Positions 23,122 through 39,059 of a stretch of DNA of 64,000 nucleotides are shown in pieces. The DNA is from Candidatus Rokuibacteriota bacterium (GTDB taxonomy: Bacteria; Methylomirabilota; Methylomirabilia; Rokubacteriales; CSP1-6). The stretch spans positions 1 to 64,000 of the forward strand of contig QHRU01000046.1 in the NCBI GenBank assembly GCA_003220225.1, in the 5' to 3' direction. Numbering within the stretch: position 1 is the first letter of the stretch; each line of letters opens with the position of its first letter. Below the pieces are notes generated by a model, which was given only the letters and a program-made list of their open reading frames with translations, was not told the origin of the DNA and searched no databases. A program made the position numbers and the translations under genes.

Positions 23122-24194
23122 TGCGTCCCGTGTCCCTGGCCGAGATCGAGTCGCTCGCCATCGGCGCCTGGATCCTGGGCACCGGAGGCGGCGGCAGCCC
23201 CTACCTGGCGCTGCTGAACATGCGCCGGCTCTACCGCGCGGGGACGGTCGTGCAGCTGATGGACCCGATGGACCTCGCCGACGACGCCCTCGTGGCCATC
23301 GTCTCCAACATGGGCGCGCCGCTCGTCGGCCAGGAGCGGCTCACCGACCCGCGCACGATCGAGCGCGCGGTGCGGATGATGGAGGAGTATCTCGGCCGGC
23401 GCTTCACCGCCGTGATGTCGCTCGAGATCGGCGGCGGCAACTCCATCCAGCCGTTCATGGCCGCCGCCCTGCTCGGTCTGCCCGTGGTGGACGGCGACTG
23501 CATGGGGCGCGCGTTTCCCGAGGCGCAGATGACCTCGTTCGCCATTCACGACCTGCCGATGTACCCGCTCACGCTCGCCGACGTGCGCGACAACGCCGTC
23601 ATCGTCGCGCGCGCGGAGTCGTGGAAGTGGATGGAGCGGCTGTCGCGCACGGCGTGCGTCGCCGTCGGCTCGATCGCGGCCACGTGCAAGGCGCCGCGGA
23701 CGGGCAAGGAAGTGAAGGAGTGCGGCATCCTCTCTACGACCACCAAGGCGATGCGCCTGGGCCAGGCCGTGCAGGCCGCGCGCCGCGCGCACCGCGACCC
23801 CGTGCAGGCGGTGATCGACATCGAGCGCGGCCTGCGCCTGTTTACCGGCAAGGTGCAGGACGTCGCGCGCCGGGCCACCGAGGGGTTCCTGCGCGGCACC
23901 GCCACCCTGGAGGGCCTCGATGCGGACCGCGGTCACGCGTTCCGGCTCGCGTTCCAGAACGAGTTCGCCGTCGGCTGGCTCGACGGCCAGGTGCGCGTGA
24001 CGACGCCGGATCTCATCTGCGTGCTCGACACGGTCTCCGGCGACGCCGTGGGCACCGAGACGCTGCGCTACGGCCAGCGCGTGACGGTGGTTGCCCTGCC
24101 CGCGGCGCCGATCTTACTGACGCCGAAGGGCCTGGAGCACGTCGGGCCGCGCGCGTTCGGCTACGACCTGGATTTCACGTCGGTGTTCCGATGA
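23121..24194 (+). CDS. DUF917 / S-methyl thiohydantoin desulfurase-like protein
   Basis: The 357-residue protein matches the DUF917 family (start IESLAIGAWILGTGGGGSPY, then EIGGGNS and GDCMGRAFPE). One family member has been described as an S-methyl-thiohydantoin desulfurase, and DUF917 proteins are commonly encoded beside hydantoinase/oxoprolinase subunits, as here. The substrate is probably a hydantoin-like ring compound imported by this operon. TGATG and ATGA overlaps connect it on both sides. Confidence 0.82.
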   Translation: MRPVSLAEIESLAIGAWILGTGGGGSPYLALLNMRRLYRAGTVVQLMDPMDLADDALVAIVSNMGAPLVGQERLTDPRTIERAVRMMEEYLGRRFTAVMSLEIGGGNSIQPFMAAALLGLPVVDGDCMGRAFPEAQMTSFAIHDLPMYPLTLADVRDNAVIVARAESWKWMERLSRTACVAVGSIAATCKAPRTGKEVKECGILSTTTKAMRLGQAVQAARRAHRDPVQAVIDIERGLRLFTGKVQDVARRATEGFLRGTATLEGLDADRGHAFRLAFQNEFAVGWLDGQVRVTTPDLICVLDTVSGDAVGTETLRYGQRVTVVALPAAPILLTPKGLEHVGPRAFGYDLDFTSVFR

Positions 24195-31230: not shown

Positions 31231-32616
31231 ATGGCAGCCAGGGCGACCGACAAGAACCGGACCAAGTTCCTCCTGGACGAGAAGGACATCCCGACCAAGT
31301 GGTACAACATCCAGGCCGACTTCAAGTCGCCCGCGCCGCCCGTGCTGCACCCGGGCACCGGCCAGCCGATCGGGCCTGCCGATCTCGCGCCGCTGTTCCC
31401 GATGGAGCTGATCAAGCAGGAGGTCAGCCGGGCGCGCTGGATCGAGATCCCCGACGAGGTGCGCGACATCCTCAAGCTGTGGCGGCCGTCGCCGCTCTTC
31501 CGCGCGCGCCGGCTCGAGAAAGTGCTCGGCACGCCCGCGCGCATCTACTACAAGTACGAGGGCGTGAGTCCCGCGGGCAGCCACAAGCCCAACACGGCGG
31601 TCGCGCAGGCCTACTACAACAAGAAGGAAAAGGTCACGCGGCTGTCGACGGAGACGGGCGCCGGCCAGTGGGGCTCGGCCCTGGCGCTGGCGTCGCAGCT
31701 CTTCGGGCTGCAATGCAAGGTCTACATGGTGAAGGTGTCGTACCAGCAGAAGCCGTATCGCCGGATCATGATGGAGACCTGGGGCGCCCAGGTCGTGGCG
31801 AGCCCCAGCCCGGATACCCAGGCGGGCAAGAAGATCCTCGGGCAGGATCCGAACTCGCCGGGCTCGCTCGGCATCGCGATCAGCGAGGCCGTGGAAGACG
31901 CCGCCACCCGCGACGACACCAAGTACTCGCTCGGCAGCGTGCTCAACCACGTGCTGATGCACCAGACCATCATCGGGCAGGAGGCGAAGAAGCAGCTCGA
32001 GAAGGCCGACGACGAGGCGGACGTCGTCATCGGCTGCGCCGGCGGCGGCTCCAACTTCGCCGGGCTGTCGTTCCCCTTCGCCGCCGACAAGCTCACGGGC
32101 AAGCGCAAGACGACGCGCATCATCGCCGTGGAGCCGACCGCCTGCCCGAGCCTCACCAAGGGCAAGTACACCTACGACTTCGGCGACACCGTCGGGATGA
32201 CGCCGCTGGTGAAGATGCACACGCTCGGCCACGGCTTCGTGCCGGCGCCGCTGCACGCCGGCGGCCTGCGCTACCACGGCATGGCGCCGCTCGTCTGCAA
32301 GCTCTACGACGAGGGGGTGATCGAGGCGATCGCGGTGCCGCAGATCGCGACCTTCCAGGCCGCCATGCAGTTCGCGCGCAGCGAGGGCATCATCCCCGCG
32401 CCGGAGTCGGCTCACGCGATCCGGGTGGTCATCGATGAAGCACTGCGCTGCAAGAAGGAAGGCAAGCGCCAGGCGATCCTGTTCAACCTCTCCGGCCACG
32501 GTCACTTCGATCTCGGCGCCTACGAGGCCTTCCTGGCCGGCAAGCTCGAGGACTACGAGTACCCGGCGGCGAAGATCGAGGAGGCGCTGCGCGGCGTGCC
32601 GCAGGTGAAGGCGTGA
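31231..32616 (+). CDS. trpB: TrpB2-type PLP enzyme (tryptophan synthase beta-like)
   Basis: The 461-residue protein is a long-form (TrpB2) beta-like enzyme: [13 protein letters not shown], the PLP lysine in [11 protein letters not shown] near residue 120, [13 protein letters not shown], the phosphate-binding [11 protein letters not shown] and the C-terminal NLSGHGHFD. TrpB2 proteins can condense indole and serine, but when not next to trpA they may act as salvage enzymes or serine/threonine deaminase-like proteins. It is preceded by AAGGAGG. Its stop overlaps the start of a binding-protein gene (GTGA), an unusual coupling to an ABC importer. Confidence 0.87.
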
Positions 32617-33605
32617 GCCTGATGCGCCGACGCGAGTTTCTGAAAGCCGGCGCCGCGCTGCTCGCCGCGCCGGCGGTGGCGCGCGCGCAGGCCACCAGGG
32701 GCAAGGTCCGCTTCGCCTACCTCCAGCTCGGCTGGGCGGGGCCCGAGATCATCCACAAGGAGGATCTGCTCGGCAAGCACGGCTGGCAGGCGGAATACTC
32801 CGTCGTCCCCGGCTCGCCGGTGCCGCTGCTGAACCAGCTGACCAGCAAGAACGTGGACGCGATCGACATGTCGTTCGCGCTCGCCGCCAAGGCGTTCGAG
32901 GACGGCGCGCCGGTGAAGGTGACGGGCGTGGCCACCGCGGTGCTGGGCGCCATCGTCGCGCGCAAGGACGCGGGGCTCACGAGGGTCGAGGACCTCAAGG
33001 GCAGGAAGGTCGCGGCCGTCGTCGGCACGTCGACCTTCTTCGACATCCGGGCGTTGACGCTCAAGGGTTACGGGCTCGATCTCCAGAAGGAAACGCAGCT
33101 CGTGACCGCCACCGCGCCGCCCGACATGGCGACGTTGTTGGCCAAGAAAGACGTCGACGCGATCATCGCCTGGCAGCCGATCAGCGACTCGGTGGTGCTC
33201 GCGGGCCAGGGCGTCTATCTCGCCAAGCAGATCGACCTCTGGCGCAAGGCGACGGGCCGGGCCTCCGGCTTCCCCGTCCACGTCTGCTATCTCGTGCACA
33301 GCGACTTCATCGCGACGAACGCGTCGTTCCCGAGCGACCTCAACGCAGCGCAGAAGGACGCGGTCGACGTCTGGTACAACAAGCCGGCGCGCGCCAAAGA
33401 CATCATGGCCGAGGTCACCAAGCTGCCCAAGGACGTGATCGAGGTCGCCTACAAGGAAACCGTGCGGATGCTCTCCGGGCTTCCCGATGAGCAGGTCGAG
33501 ACGCTCATCGCGCAGCTGAAGATCAACAAGGAGTTCGGCTTCCTGAAGTCCGACATCTGGGAGCAGCCGGACCGGGTACGGAAGGAGTTCTTTCACCGCG
33601 CGTGA
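32613..33605 (+). CDS. ABC transporter substrate-binding protein (SsuA/TauA/NrtA-like), Tat signal
   Basis: The 330-residue protein begins with a twin-arginine-like signal ([17 protein letters not shown]) after a GTG that overlaps the TrpB2 stop; ATG 32622 is a second possible start. The mature part has the NMT1/SsuA fold ([50 protein letters not shown]). Relatives bind sulfonates, nitrate or pyrimidine precursors. Coupling to TrpB2 suggests an aromatic or amino-acid-like ligand, which remains inference. Confidence 0.84.
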
Positions 33606-34360
33606 GCGCGCGTCACTGGGCCACCCGGCTGCACCTGCCGACTTTGGGCGTCGCCGCCGTCATCGTCGCCGGCTGGGTCCTGCTCTCGTGGCGCTACGGC
33701 GCCTACGTCCTGCCCTCGCCGCTGGCCGTCGCGCGCGGCTTCGCCGAGATCGTCGCCAGCGGCGAGATCTGGCGGCACACCGTCGCCTCGCTCGGCCGCA
33801 TCCTCGTCGGCTTCGGCGGCGCGGTGGTGGTCGCGCTCCTGACCGGCCTCGCGGCGTTTCTCTCGCGGACGGCGCGCGGCGTGATCCACGACTTCCTGTC
33901 GGTCCTCAACTCGACGTCGGTCTTCGTCTGGATCGTCATCTCGATCATCTGGTTCGGGCTCTCCAACTGGGCGCCCATCTTCACCACGTTCATGATCACC
34001 CTGCCCGTGGTGGCGTCGAACATCGTCGAGGGCGTGGCGAACGTGGACCGCCGGCTGCTCGAGATGGGCGACGTCTACCGGCTGTCCGGCCGGCAGAAGT
34101 TCACGGCCATCGTGGTGCCGTCCACGCTGCCCTATCTGGTAGTGGGCATGAAGGTCGGCTTCGGCCTGGCCCTGAAGGTGTCGGTGGTCGCCGAGATCTT
34201 CGGCGTCACCTCCGGTATCGGCTACGTGATGAACTACTCGCGCGAGATCCTCGCCACCCAGATGGTCTTCGTGTGGGCGCTCGTCATGATCCTCGTCATG
34301 ACCGCCACCGACAGGCTCGTCTTCGACGCGGTCTCGCGGCGGCTCGACCGATGGCGGTGA
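33602..34360 (+). CDS. ABC transporter permease (SsuC/TauC-like)
   Basis: The 252-residue membrane protein has about six spans and the BPD-transporter signature around DVYRLSGRQKFTAIVVPSTLP, which contacts the ATPase. GTG 33602 overlaps the preceding stop by 4 bp. It forms the channel for the adjacent binding protein, probably as a homodimer because only one permease gene is present. Confidence 0.85.
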   Translation: MSARHWATRLHLPTLGVAAVIVAGWVLLSWRYGAYVLPSPLAVARGFAEIVASGEIWRHTVASLGRILVGFGGAVVVALLTGLAAFLSRTARGVIHDFLSVLNSTSVFVWIVISIIWFGLSNWAPIFTTFMITLPVVASNIVEGVANVDRRLLEMGDVYRLSGRQKFTAIVVPSTLPYLVVGMKVGFGLALKVSVVAEIFGVTSGIGYVMNYSREILATQMVFVWALVMILVMTATDRLVFDAVSRRLDRWR

Positions 34361-35106
34361 CGCTCGAGGTCGCCGAGGTCGGCAAGGACTTCCTGATCCC
34401 GGTCATCGACTCCGTGTCGTTCGGCGTCGAGGCCGGCGAGTTCGTCTGCCTGCTCGGCCCCAACGGCTGCGGCAAGACCACGCTCCTGCGCATCGTCGGC
34501 GGGCTCGAGCCGCCCACGCGCGGGCGCGTGCTGCTCGGCGGCGAGCCCGTCTCGGGCAGCGGCCGGCACACGAAGAAAGTCGGCGTCGTCTTCCAGGAGG
34601 ACCGGCTGCTGCCGTGGATGACCCTGCGCGAGAACGTCGAGCTGGTGCTCGAGCCGCTCGGCCTCGGTGCCGAGGCGCGCCGGCAGGCGGCCGATCGCCA
34701 CCTGCGGCTGGCCGGCCTGGCCGGCTTCGAGGCTTATCATCCCGCGCGCGTGTCGGGTGGCATGCGCCAGCGCGCGGCCATCGCGCGCGCGCTCGCCATC
34801 GAGCCCGATCTGCTGCTGATGGACGAGCCGTTCGGCGCGCTCGACGCCCAGAACCGGCGCATCATGCAGCAGGAGGTGCGGCGCATCTGGCGGGAGACCG
34901 GCCGCACGATCCTGTTCGTCACCCACGCCATCGACGAGGCGGTGGCGATCGGCACCACGCTGATCATGCTCTCCGCGCGCCCGGCGCGGATCCGCGAGAT
35001 GGTTCGCAACGACGGCCACCTCGAGCGCGGCAAGCTGATCGACGACCTCAACACGATGATCATGGAAGAGGTCGAGCGCCAGCAGGGCGTGGTCGGACCA
35101 GCCTGA
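34351..35106 (+). CDS. ABC transporter ATP-binding protein (SsuB/TauB-like)
   Basis: The 251-residue ATPase has Walker A GPNGCGKT (about 35-42), Q-loop VFQEDRLLPW, signature VSGGMRQRAAIARAL, Walker B LLMDEPFGALD and the switch VTHAIDEA. The TLRENVEL and ARPARI segments are typical of the nitrate/sulfonate family. ATG 34351 lies 10 bp inside the end of the permease gene. It ends the four-gene TrpB2-ABC operon. Confidence 0.87.
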   Translation: MAVTLEVAEVGKDFLIPVIDSVSFGVEAGEFVCLLGPNGCGKTTLLRIVGGLEPPTRGRVLLGGEPVSGSGRHTKKVGVVFQEDRLLPWMTLRENVELVLEPLGLGAEARRQAADRHLRLAGLAGFEAYHPARVSGGMRQRAAIARALAIEPDLLLMDEPFGALDAQNRRIMQQEVRRIWRETGRTILFVTHAIDEAVAIGTTLIMLSARPARIREMVRNDGHLERGKLIDDLNTMIMEEVERQQGVVGPA

Positions 35107-35178
35107 GATCTTTACGGAATTTTTATCGAACCCCCGCGCGTCACACGTGCGTCCCAATCACTGATGGGAGGTGACGTG

Positions 35179-35295
35179 ATGACCAAGCGCATCGTGTTCG
35201 CACTTCTGCTCGCTTTCGCGGCACTGAGCGCCACGACCCCGGTCTGGGCCGACACCGAGTCGGGCAGCGGGATCGTCGGCACGCAGTCCCCCTAA
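35179..35295 (+). CDS. 38-residue secreted micro-peptide
   Basis: ATG 35179 (or GTG 35176) follows GGGAGGTGA. The frame encodes a textbook signal peptide (TKRIVFALLLAFAALSATT, cleavage after VWA) and a 14-residue mature tail beginning DTESGSG. It ends with TAA. A perfect 11-bp hairpin lies 14 nt downstream. The strong ribosome binding site, signal peptide and downstream hairpin support a real gene despite its length. No family is recognised. Confidence 0.55.
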   Translation: MTKRIVFALLLAFAALSATTPVWADTESGSGIVGTQSP

Positions 35296-35309
35296 CGCAG
35301 ACGGACCAC

Positions 35310-35336
35310 GGCGGGCGGGAAAATCTCCCGCCCGCC
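35310..35336 (+). terminator. terminator-like hairpin after the 38-residue peptide gene
   Basis: The arms GGCGGGCGGGA and TCCCGCCCGCC are exact complements around AAATC. No T tract follows, so termination is uncertain. Position, 14 nt after a stop codon, supports a 3'-end role. Confidence 0.5.
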
Positions 35337-35384
35337 GCGCGTTCGACCTGACACGCGTCTAATTTCGAAAGGAAGGATGTCACA

Positions 35385-35528
35385 ATGTTGCTCGCGGAAT
35401 TCATCGCCGGCGCCGTGCTGCTGACGGTTGGTGCCCTGGGCGCTCTCGATTCGCGTCCGGCACGCGGAATGCTGTACGCGGTCGCCCGCTGGCGACGGCG
35501 GCGCCGGCACGCGCAGCGGAGTCGCTAG
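35385..35528 (+). CDS. 47-residue membrane micro-protein with arginine-rich tail
   Basis: ATG 35385 follows GGAAGG. One hydrophobic helix (about 1-20, LLAEFIAGAVLLTVGALGAL) is followed by an extremely basic tail (WRRRRRHAQRSR). Such short single-span proteins often associate with larger membrane complexes or with nucleic acids at the membrane. Its stop lies one base from the stop of the convergent OsmC gene. No family is recognised. Confidence 0.5.
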   Translation: MLLAEFIAGAVLLTVGALGALDSRPARGMLYAVARWRRRRRHAQRSR

Positions 35529-35529
35529 C

Positions 35530-35952
35530 TCACGCCAGCCGCGTGCGGATCTTGATCTCCGACGTGAGCGTCCGGTGCACCGGACACATGTCGGCGATCT
35601 GAGCGAGCCGCCCGCGCTGCTCCTCGGTCAACCGACCGGACAGCACGAGCTCGCGCTCGATCTGGTCGAGCTTGCCCTCCTTGGTCTCGCAGTCGGCGCA
35701 GTCCGCGGCGTGGATCCGGGAGTGCGTGAGGCGCACGGTGACGCCGTCGAGCGGCCAGCCCTTCTTTCGCGCATACAGCGCGAGCGTCATGGACGTTCAG
35801 GCGCCGAGGGCGATCAGCAGATAGTCGTAGGGCGACGGGCCGGCGTCGGCGCCGCCGTCGGCGACGGGCTCGTCTGAGACCGCCCGATGCGGGCCGACGA
35901 GCACCTCCTGGGCGAGTCCCGAAGCGCCGCCGTGAACGGTGACTGTGGCCAT
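35530..35952 (-). CDS. osmC: probable selenoprotein: OsmC/Ohr-family peroxidase with in-frame UGA (Sec52)
   Basis: ATG 35952 follows GAGGAGGAG and opens MATVTVHGG. The frame runs through GPSPYDYLLIALGA to TGA at 35797-35799, then continues TSMTLALYARKKGWPL and CPVHRTLTSEIKIRTRLA to a stop at 35530. In OsmC proteins this text is GACTSMT, so the UGA lies exactly on the peroxidatic cysteine. The resolving Cys (CPVHRT) is retained. A perfect hairpin begins 13 nt after the UGA. The 140-residue readthrough product has normal OsmC length and no other defect. OsmC enzymes reduce organic hydroperoxides; selenium at this site would raise reactivity. Cut at the UGA the gene would look like two fragments. 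A single Cys-to-stop mutation is the alternative. Confidence 0.78.
35767..35783 (-). promoter_or_regulatory. candidate bacterial SECIS hairpin for the OsmC gene
   Basis: The RNA stem UCGCGC / GCGCGA (6 perfect pairs) closes a UGUAU loop that begins 19 nt after the UGA, with G as its second base. Distance and loop composition fit bacterial SECIS rules. The hairpin is in coding sequence, as required. Confidence 0.62.
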
Positions 35953-35977
35953 CGTCTCCTCCTCGTCTCGGGCAGGC

Positions 35978-37066
35978 TCATCCGCCGAGGATCCGGTCCC
36001 AGCGGCCGTACTCGCGCGCGGCCTCCATGAACCACTTCACGCAGTCGGGGTTGGCGCGCGGCGGCAGCTCGCACGAGGTCGAGAGCACGAAGCGCGAGCG
36101 CGTGCCGGCGGTGTCGATGCAGCGCCGCACCTCGGCCTCGATCTGGGCCTTGGTGGCGCGCTCGAAGATCGTGACGTCCACGTTGCCGATGGCCACGACG
36201 TTCTTCTGGTTGCCGAGCGTGATGAGGCGGTCGAGCTGATCGACGTAGAGCTTCGGGTCGGACTGCTGGTCGAGGTCGATGGTGATGGCGACGAACCCGA
36301 CGTCCACCAGGTCTTCGTGGATCTGATGCGTGGTGCCGCAGATGTGCACGGTGGTGCCGACCTTCTTGGCCTTGAAGTAGTCCACCAGCTCCTTGTGGTA
36401 GGGCTTGATGAACTCCCGGTACGTGTCGGGGCCGACGAGCGAGCACGAGGCCGTCGGATCGGAGTACGAGAGCCCGATCTTCGTCGTGAGCACCGCGTCG
36501 CCCATCCGCCTGGCGAACTCCGTCGCGAAGCGCATGAGATCGTGGACGAACTCCGGGTCCTCCAGCGTGTCCAGGCACATCAGCTCGGGGTTGCGCATAA
36601 GCATCGCGATCGTCCACGGCCCCACCAGGACGGCGCCCAGCGCGCTCGGGAACTTCTGCGCGGACAGCGCCTCGCACTGCTCGAGGAACGCGGGCAGCCG
36701 CCCCTGCCGGAACGGGTCCGGCACCTCGAGCCGCGCCAGCTTGCCCTTGTCGTCCTGGAGCACGTGCTGGTCGATCGAGGGCACGACGTAATCGGAGTAC
36801 TTCACGTGGCAGCCGACGGCTTCGGCTTCTTTGGCCAGATCGTTGAACGCGATCATGATGTCCGGCTGATATCGCTCGTAGTAGTTGATCATCGCCTTCA
36901 CGGCCTTCTTCGGATTCGTGCAGTACTCCTCGATCGAGAGGCCGTCCAGGCAGCCGGCGAACGAGCCGGCGATCGGGTAGGCGGGCACGCGATCGGCGTG
37001 CTGCCCCTTGTACGCGGCCACCACGCGCTCGCGCGGCGTGACTTCACGGGGCTGGTCCATGGCCAT
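35978..37066 (-). CDS. uroporphyrinogen decarboxylase (URO-D)/MtbA-like methyltransferase
   Basis: The 362-residue protein has the URO-D barrel with the zinc-binding pattern of MtaA/MtbA/MtsA-type cobamide methyltransferases: HICGTTHQI in the middle and STSCELPPRANPD near the C terminus (His, Cys, Cys). Such enzymes transfer methyl groups between a corrinoid protein and a thiol or demethylate substrates, rather than making haem. ATG 37066 overlaps the stop of the upstream LLM gene as TGATG. The OsmC selenoprotein gene starts 25 bp downstream and shares the transcript. Confidence 0.82.
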   Translation of the reverse strand: MAMDQPREVTPRERVVAAYKGQHADRVPAYPIAGSFAGCLDGLSIEEYCTNPKKAVKAMINYYERYQPDIMIAFNDLAKEAEAVGCHVKYSDYVVPSIDQHVLQDDKGKLARLEVPDPFRQGRLPAFLEQCEALSAQKFPSALGAVLVGPWTIAMLMRNPELMCLDTLEDPEFVHDLMRFATEFARRMGDAVLTTKIGLSYSDPTASCSLVGPDTYREFIKPYHKELVDYFKAKKVGTTVHICGTTHQIHEDLVDVGFVAITIDLDQQSDPKLYVDQLDRLITLGNQKNVVAIGNVDVTIFERATKAQIEAEVRRCIDTAGTRSRFVLSTSCELPPRANPDCVKWFMEAAREYGRWDRILGG

Positions 37067-38067
37067 CACCTCGACTCTAGCATCGGCACGAAGGCTTCCA
37101 GCGAGCGGCGCGTCTCCTCCGCCGTGAGATTGGGGCGGAACATCAGCCCGGGCATGGCGGCGCCGGCCTCGTACCAGCGCGCCAGGCGGCGTCGCGCCTC
37201 GGCCGGCGTGCCGTAGACGATCAGCTCGTCGAGCAACACCTCGGCCTCCGGCGGCACCGCGCCCGCGAGCTTCGGCGCGTTGGCGGCGAGCACCGCGTGC
37301 ACTTCCTTGTCGAACCCGAAGCGGATCAGCGTGTCGCGGTAGAACGTCCCCATCGACGTCAGGTAGAACGACACGAGCCACGCGGCGCCCGCGCGCGCCT
37401 TGGCGGCGTCGTCGTCGACCGAGGCGGGGATCATCGGATAGACGGCGGGCGCCGGGCGGTTCGTGCGCGCGGCGCCCTCACGCAGGCGCTCCAGCCCCTG
37501 CCCGAGCACGCGCACGGGATAGAGGAACGGCATCCAGCCGTCGGCGACCTCACCGGCCAGCCGCACGGAGGCGTCGCCGATGGCCGCGAGGCAGATCGGC
37601 ACCTCCGCCGGCGGGACGTTCAGGCGCAGCGCGCGCGCCTCCTTCGCGACGGCGAGCGGGACACGCTCGCCGCGCAGCAGCGCCCGCACCTGGCTCACGA
37701 CCTGGCGCATCCGGGCGAGCGGCGCGCCGAAGGGCACGTCGTGCAGGCCCTCGACCAGCTGCGGCGTGCTGGCGCCCAGCCCGAGGATGAATCGCCCGGC
37801 GGAGAGCGAGGCGAGCGTGGCCGCGCCCATGGCGAGGGTGGCCGCGCTGCGATTCCACACGCCGAGGATGGCCGAGCCGACCCGGATGCGCTCGGTCTTC
37901 ACCGCCGCCTCCGCGAGGACGATCGTGACGTCGTACGCCCACGTCTCCGGCAGCAGCAGCGCGTCGTAGCCCAGGCGCTCGCCGAGCGTGGCGAGCGTCA
38001 GGAACTGCTCGCGGCGGTTCTCCAGCGGCATCACCGAGACGGCGAGCGGTCGCGCCACGGCCGCCAT
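37066..38067 (-). CDS. LLM-class (F420-dependent-type) oxidoreductase
   Basis: The 333-residue TIM-barrel protein belongs to the luciferase-like monooxygenase family (LGERLGYDALLLPETWAYD, RIRVGSAILGVWNRS, GRFILGLGASTPQLVEG). These enzymes use FMNH2 or reduced F420 on varied substrates. Residues alone do not settle which cofactor, though F420 use is common in this subgroup. The ATG lies 6 nt after the stop of another LLM gene, so the two form a pair within one operon. Confidence 0.83.
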   Translation of the reverse strand: MAAVARPLAVSVMPLENRREQFLTLATLGERLGYDALLLPETWAYDVTIVLAEAAVKTERIRVGSAILGVWNRSAATLAMGAATLASLSAGRFILGLGASTPQLVEGLHDVPFGAPLARMRQVVSQVRALLRGERVPLAVAKEARALRLNVPPAEVPICLAAIGDASVRLAGEVADGWMPFLYPVRVLGQGLERLREGAARTNRPAPAVYPMIPASVDDDAAKARAGAAWLVSFYLTSMGTFYRDTLIRFGFDKEVHAVLAANAPKLAGAVPPEAEVLLDELIVYGTPAEARRRLARWYEAGAAMPGLMFRPNLTAEETRRSLEAFVPMLESR

Positions 38068-38073
38068 GCTACG

Positions 38074-38967
38074 TCACCCGACGAGCGCCGGGCGGATCTT
38101 CCTCGCGACGAGGTCGAGCAGCTCCATCATCCGCTTGGGATCCTCGCGCCGGAACACGACGGCGGTGTGGCTCACGCCCAGACGCGCGTATTCCCCGAGC
38201 CGGTCCACGACGGCCTGCGCGCCGTCGGCGAGGGCCTTCTCGCTCAGCTCGAAGCGCATCGAGATCTCGATCGTCTTCCACGCGCGGCCGGCCGCGTCGG
38301 CCAGCGCGCGCAGCTCGGCGAGCGAGGCGCGCAGCTCGTCGGGGGTCTTCGACATCGCGTGCCAGCCGTCGCCGAGCGCGACCACGCGGCGCAGGGCCGC
38401 CGTCGTGTTGCCGCCGACCCAGATCGGCGGGTGCGGCTTCTGCACCGGCTTGGGCTCGAAGCCGACGTCGCCAACGCGATAGAACTCGCCCTCGAAGCGG
38501 GACTCGCGCTCGGTCCACAGCGTCTTGAACACGGCAAGCGCCTCGTCGGCGGCGCGCCCGCGCCTGGCGAAGTCGACGCCCAGGATCTCCAGCTCCTGCC
38601 GCCACCAGCCCACGCCCACGCCGCAGATGAGCCGGCCGCCCGAGAGCACGTCGATCGTCGCCAGCATCTTGGCCATGGCGACCGGATGCCGGTGCCCGAG
38701 GATGAACACCGAGCAGCCGATCCGCGCGCGGGTGGTCGCCACGGCCAGCGCGCTCAGCATCGCCACCGGCTCGAGGTAGGGCACGTCCGGCGGGACGGGA
38801 AAGCTGCGACCGCCGGGATAGCCGGCCGTCGCGCGCGGGATCACGACGTGATCGCTGACCCAGAGCGAGACGAAGTCGCGCGCCTCGGCTTCGCGCGCGA
38901 ACGTCAGCAGCGCCTCGCGCGTGACGTCGGGGGCGACGGTGGTGGGAACGTGGACGCCGATCTGCAT
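38074..38967 (-). CDS. LLM-class (F420-dependent-type) oxidoreductase
   Basis: The 297-residue protein is a second luciferase-like monooxygenase (FVSLWVSDHVVIP, VMLSALAVATTRARIG-like text, GRLICGVGVGWWRQELEILG, PPIWVGGNTTAALRR), of the F420-dependent subgroup with a TIGR03619-like layout. GGAGGTG precedes ATG 38967, chosen over an upstream in-frame ATG in non-conserved sequence. It leads the minus-strand operon LLM-LLM-UroD-OsmC(Sec). Confidence 0.84.
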   Translation of the reverse strand: MQIGVHVPTTVAPDVTREALLTFAREAEARDFVSLWVSDHVVIPRATAGYPGGRSFPVPPDVPYLEPVAMLSALAVATTRARIGCSVFILGHRHPVAMAKMLATIDVLSGGRLICGVGVGWWRQELEILGVDFARRGRAADEALAVFKTLWTERESRFEGEFYRVGDVGFEPKPVQKPHPPIWVGGNTTAALRRVVALGDGWHAMSKTPDELRASLAELRALADAAGRAWKTIEISMRFELSEKALADGAQAVVDRLGEYARLGVSHTAVVFRREDPKRMMELLDLVARKIRPALVG

Positions 38968-39023
38968 GAGACACCTCCGGGGCCCGGACGTTAGCAGAGG
39001 CCGGAGGGCCCGGCAACGTGCGG

Positions 39024-39029
39024 TAGAAT
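39024..39029 (+). promoter_or_regulatory. TAGAAT -10 box for the nitrilase-fold gene
   Basis: TAGAAT lies 30 nt before ATG 39060. A strong AGAGGAGGGG lies between them, so this transcript has a short leader and a ribosome binding site, unlike the leaderless genes. Confidence 0.5.
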
Positions 39030-39059
39030 CCCCGCGCACATTCCAGAGGAGGGGCGCGC

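Follow-up and report, generated by a model that had tools for sequence, protein, structure and literature searches.

The gene at 35530-35952 and its surroundings

The window analysed here is a stretch of 64,000 nucleotides from a draft metagenome-assembled genome (MAG) of Candidatus Rokubacteria/Methylomirabilota that is 97% complete. On its minus strand, at 35530-35952, lies an OsmC-family gene for a protein of 140 amino acids. The ATG start codon (35952-35950) is preceded at a distance of 5 nt by the Shine-Dalgarno-like sequence AGGAGG (35958-35963, minus strand), and the frame terminates with a TGA at 35532-35530. Within the frame a further UGA (35797-35799, minus strand) occupies codon 52, the position of the first conserved Cys of OsmC, in the context LIALGA-U-TSMTLALYA. 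When this single UGA is translated as a residue, the protein reads MATVTVHGG...YDYLLIALGA-U-TSMTLALYARKKG...MCPVHRTLTSEIKIRTRLA and matches the Pfam OsmC model (PF02566) with 65 bits against a cut-off of 27.5. The second conserved Cys, Cys123 in the motif CPVHRT (35584-35586, minus strand), is invariant in 105 of 105 relatives, while a C-x-x-C made of Cys85 and Cys88 in DCADC (35689-35700, minus strand) is present in all 74 relatives with Cys at site 52 and in 23 of the 31 with UGA. An AlphaFold model computed from 72 aligned relatives reached a pLDDT of 93.6, and a fold search of the PDB returned OsmC/Ohr proteins as the nearest solved structures. The original prediction had given the frame coordinates, the position of the UGA, the motif around it and the second Cys in CPVHRT, all of which were recovered when the sequence was read again. 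It had left out the strand, which is the minus strand. On the plus strand, 35530-35952 shows no OsmC motifs, and the TGA that lies in frame there is a different one.

The gene sits within a block (31231-39039) that also contains, on the plus strand, a PALP-family (TrpB-like) gene followed by the NMT1-like substrate-binding protein, the permease and the ATPase of an ABC transporter, and, on the minus strand at 35978-39039, a gene of the URO-D family together with a tandem pair of genes for luciferase-like monooxygenases. The URO-D, luciferase-like monooxygenase and ABC transporter genes are common to both congeners. Among more distant relatives, the flanking regions showed none of these neighbours except for one weak match to the ABC ATPase, and thus the neighbourhood indicates no functional partner. 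Models of defence systems gave no match. A codon-usage scan of the window for other read-through candidates yielded top hits that resemble gene junctions or low-complexity frames, and a candidate on the minus strand at 23548 has a translation that looks non-coding.

Conservation of codon 52

Among 105 non-duplicate aligned relatives, codon 52 is TGA in 31 and TGC or TGT in 74, with no other codon at this position. The UGA forms come from many separate assemblies, belonging to Rokubacteria and their class and also to Gemmatimonadetes, Acidobacteria and Planctomycetota MAGs. For three of the Gemmatimonadetes MAGs, the record names suggest the same soil series as many of the Rokubacteria MAGs, so that misbinned contigs are possible there. 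Cys at the site is found chiefly in Proteobacteria, Actinomycetota, Verrucomicrobia and Acidobacteria. The coding sequence appears to be under constraint both before and after the UGA. Here dN/dS is below 1 upstream and downstream in each of eight pairwise comparisons, with values of 0.11-0.20 upstream and 0.23-0.24 downstream against the two congeners, and substitutions on either side are concentrated in third codon positions.

The hairpin 3' of the UGA

A perfect 6-bp hairpin with a UGUAU loop, beginning 13 nt after the UGA, had been described for this gene and is present as such. It has the form of the upper stem-loop of a bacterial SECIS, UCGCGC-(UGUAU)-GCGCGA (35767-35783, minus strand); its apical loop lies 19 nt downstream of the UGA and has a G at the second position. 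The bSECIS consensus comprises a stem of 4-16 bp, a loop of 3-9 nt with a G in its first two positions, a UGA-to-loop distance of 16-37 nt and a minimum free energy of at most -7.5 (PMC13188914). The window element falls within these ranges, with 6 bp, UGUAU and 19 nt, and its folding energy is -10.9 kcal/mol for the local structure and -15.0 when 42-43 nt are folded. Taken alone, this hairpin is weaker evidence and not decisive, as single-sequence folding gives z = -1.64 against shuffles; 7% of synonymous recodings retain at least 6 pairs. An Rfam scan of the window at gathering thresholds gave no match, and thus no curated SECIS family helps in its identification.

The comparison among relatives is more informative. 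A stem of 6-7 bp with a UGUAU, UGUAC or UGUA loop at 19 nt past the UGA is found in every one of the 29 distinct UGA sequences, while in the Cys relatives the stem is mostly broken; mean local folding energies are -11.5 and -4.2 kcal/mol, respectively. At least 6 pairs in either of two registers are formed by 29/29 UGA sequences as against 6/71 Cys sequences (Fisher p = 1e-19, relatedness ignored), and, while such counts are inflated by relatedness, the contrast with Cys forms and the slid controls agree in direction. Covariation in the main register, evaluated on 28 UGA sequences, scored 0.388, whereas shuffles gave 0.130 and none of 500 came as high; sliding the partner strand as a control gave no more than 0.115. 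Both sides were changed in 22 cells as compared to 4.7 in shuffles. Three stem pairs vary on both sides, two of them among CG, UA and GC and the third between CG and UA.

Selenocysteine machinery and decoding of the UGA

The host assembly encodes the full apparatus for selenocysteine (Sec). A tRNA-Sec scores 69.7 bits, above its cut-off, with anticodon TCA according to ARAGORN. It lies within 5 kb of selB (372 bits) and selA (585 bits) on one contig (C5), and selD (335 bits) is itself a selenoprotein gene with the motif CAGUASK (L019, G000:C159:12780-13730). Nearly every genome with a UGA-containing relative has selA, the two without a match being G091 (76% complete) and G045 (95%). The same holds for five of five UGA genomes of Gemmatimonadetes, Acidobacteria and Planctomycetota, whose selA matches (536-546 bits) are below those of Rokubacteria. 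Since most of the phylum has selA anyway, this co-occurrence is a sign of consistency and not a strong test.

All in all, the decoding of UGA 52 as Sec in an OsmC protein is strongly supported by these sequence comparisons and appears almost certain. The original prediction, an OsmC-family selenoprotein with Sec at the position of the peroxidatic Cys, had named as evidence against it a genome devoid of selB or selC and sense codons other than Cys at the site; selA, selB, selC and selD are all in the genome, site 52 is Cys or UGA only, and each computational test that it had suggested came out in its favour. SelB and tRNA-Sec would thus decode the codon under the direction of the hairpin just 3' of it. 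A true stop, or a sequencing or assembly error that leaves a pseudogene or two fragments, could be imagined where a family of ordinary Cys type shows a single UGA, the more so as the window belongs to a draft MAG. This is, however, contradicted by the 31 relatives, drawn from many assemblies, that have UGA at this very codon, and it does not fit with dN/dS values that stay below 1 upstream and downstream in each of the eight comparisons (0.11-0.24 for those with the two congeners), with a hairpin kept through compensatory changes or with full Sec machinery in the genome, all of which make it very improbable. UGA recoding occurs in some lineages, and a changed code or near-cognate read-through could in principle place Trp or Cys at codon 52. 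Yet UGA serves as the ordinary terminator of this gene and of some of its neighbours, as in the ABC ATPase with its stop at 35104-35106, site 52 exchanges with Cys only, and a SECIS-like hairpin is accompanied by dedicated tRNA-Sec, SelA, SelB and SelD, so that Trp or Cys at this codon is hardly credible either.

Relation to known OsmC families

An OsmC-like selenoprotein with the motif UxxT was described from the Sargasso Sea (PMC1088965) and is listed in a 2026 catalogue of prokaryotic selenoproteins, which comprises 119 families and subfamilies and where OsmC appears once, as UxxT (PMC13188914). The NCBIfam model OsmC_like_Se (NF041052) probably describes this same group, judging from the motif, as in Rokubacteria the proteins of this family have AFU[L][M/L]TQV, which corresponds to UxxT. 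The window protein shares with the NF041052/UxxT family the OsmC family assignment, Sec at the first conserved Cys and a bacterial SECIS that closely follows the UGA. It differs in the motif, which is GAUTSMT and hence UxxxT, with UTSMT in place of ULMT, and in the model score of 54.6 bits, below the cut-off of 95. The two groups form separate clades, each with Cys proteins beside it, in a tree built from 151 proteins, whose deep forks are uncertain owing to the small number of columns and some long branches. As drawn, the Cys group of Proteobacteria falls within the Sec lineages of the window clade, but the well-supported branches force at most one change. The catalogue counts a different Sec motif as a distinct subfamily (PMC13188914), and by this rule the window protein, with its differing UTSMT motif, is an unlisted subfamily. 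Thus, the window branch of OsmC is outside the existing model and catalogue entry, while the recoding itself is of a known kind. Among the papers searched, there was no report of OsmC selenoproteins beyond the UxxT family, nor any of Sec in Rokubacteria. A Methylomirabilota study with 63 selenoproteins, cited in the catalogue (PMC13188914, ref. 66), may already include some of these genes.

Similarity to proteins with Cys at the site is also evident. Among solved sequences, the OsmC part of chain A of PDB entry 9wo1 (E 1e-33) comes closest; this chain has 400 amino acids and bears the name 'osmotically inducible protein C'. On the plasmid CP079746, a gene annotated as 'alpha/beta fold hydrolase' encodes a protein with 60% identity to that of the window. 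Both display the motifs GAC/UTxMT, DCxDCE and CPVH(K/R)T as the window protein does, but these fusion proteins have Cys instead of Sec and an extra N-terminal domain, presumably an alpha/beta hydrolase in view of the annotation, whereas the window gene is standalone. PDB entry 1ml8, the E. coli YhfA protein, ranks eighth in the fold search; it has the OsmC fold, retains the two Cys and lacks the canonical Glu as the window protein does, and differs in having Cys where the latter has Sec and in the low identity of 19%. The lipoyl-dependent peroxidases of the Ohr/OsmC type share the fold and both redox positions. They differ in that the Glu of the NPEE motif, as present in the host genome's own canonical OsmC (contig C40), aligns with Tyr42 of the window protein. 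The N-terminal part, in whose first strands the catalytic Arg would lie, was left unaligned in this comparison. Because of Tyr42 the window protein is placed near the YhfA-like class.

Other OsmC genes with in-frame UGA

A search of the host genome with the Pfam OsmC model found five genes, four of which have an in-frame TGA: the window gene (contig C28) and one gene each on contigs C148, C126 and C108. In three of the four the UGA is at the first Cys, and in the C108 gene it is at the second. The C148 gene (G000:C148:23611-24045; L159, L198) is a member of the NF041052 family, with 159 bits and the motif AFULMT. The C126 gene (G000:C126:912-1352; L199, L225) has the UGA at the first Cys in VAG-U-MFGT and a Pfam OsmC score of 26.8 bits, just below the cut-off, that rises to 35.4 bits with a longer query. 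All 25 loci of its type have UGA at the first site, and 24 of them have a GCGCCC-UGGYA-GGGCGY hairpin. The C108 gene (G000:C108:244098-244523; L197, L200) has the UGA at the second, resolving Cys (QR-U-PLYRT) and retains the first in SSCGVTL. All 25 loci of this type, with the host locus among them, have UGA at the second site and retain the first Cys, and they share a hairpin CGGTCGC...GCGACCG that starts 13 nt after the UGA. Every C108 relative above 50% identity carries TGA, and thus there is no close Cys form for comparison. For both the C108 and the C126 genes, the case for Sec draws on conservation, hairpin and position, and these genes may be regarded as putative selenoprotein genes.

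Further types are found outside the host genome. Four loci of a Rokubacteria OsmC clade (L155-L158) have UGA at the first Cys in GAU[T/K]LS together with a GTTCGGC...GCCGAAC hairpin. Two OsmC-like genes of same-class genomes (L168, L169) have it in ATUMTTT or ATUMTTTM, and two further OsmC-like loci (L142, L143), with the motif AGULTGNM, are divergent from a neighbouring NF041052 selenoprotein gene and match the C126 query. When five types other than NF041052 were tested, none passed the NF041052 cut-off and all five were above that of Pfam OsmC.

Function and mechanism

YhfA-type proteins keep both Cys, lack the catalytic Arg and Glu, and have no assigned activity (PMC8945050, PMC4069020). 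Given this, together with the invariant Cys123, a site 52 that is always Sec or Cys and the missing Glu, the window protein is likely to be a selenol-based redox enzyme. We picture it as a standalone, YhfA-like protein with the OsmC fold, in which, as the most likely mechanism, the selenolate of Sec52 would attack an oxidant, either an organic hydroperoxide or an activated disulfide or other electrophile. Cys123 would then resolve the product as a selenenyl-sulfide, to be reduced by a donor of the lipoyl or thioredoxin type.

The chances that this activity would be hydroperoxide reduction in particular appear evenly balanced. The original prediction had named the protein a selenoperoxidase, of which the first half, Sec at the first Cys, is supported by site, hairpin and machinery, while the peroxidase half had been an extrapolation and the canonical catalytic Glu is absent. 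A Sec-containing OsmC-fold protein could also act as a disulfide or electrophile reductase or as a YhfA-type thiol-switch protein, a prospect with a little less than an even chance that opposes the peroxide step only and leaves Sec decoding untouched. It agrees with the missing Glu, with a YhfA class that is devoid of Arg and Glu (PMC8945050) and with a nearest solved sequence that lies within the 400-residue 9wo1 chain and not in a classical Ohr. On the other hand, both redox positions are invariant, and Sec at site 52 suits peroxide reduction.

Implications for OsmC biology in Rokubacteria

Genes of this kind are likely to be truncated by automatic annotation. What appears most interesting is that the use of Sec is clustered across OsmC paralogues, with the second-Cys position included. 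The co-existence in a single genome of three OsmC genes with UGA at the first Cys and another with UGA at the second makes it possible to test the attack by selenium against the resolution by selenium. In parallel, the window clade contains UGA as well as Cys members in large numbers, at 50-70% identity, and is thus a good natural series for establishing what Sec adds to the OsmC active site. It seems somewhat more probable than not that much of the OsmC superfamily has moved to selenium in Rokubacteria, along at least five Sec clades that mostly use the first Cys and in one widespread clade, that of the C108 gene, the second, and that these would make up an OsmC-based selenium redox system so far catalogued as a single family.
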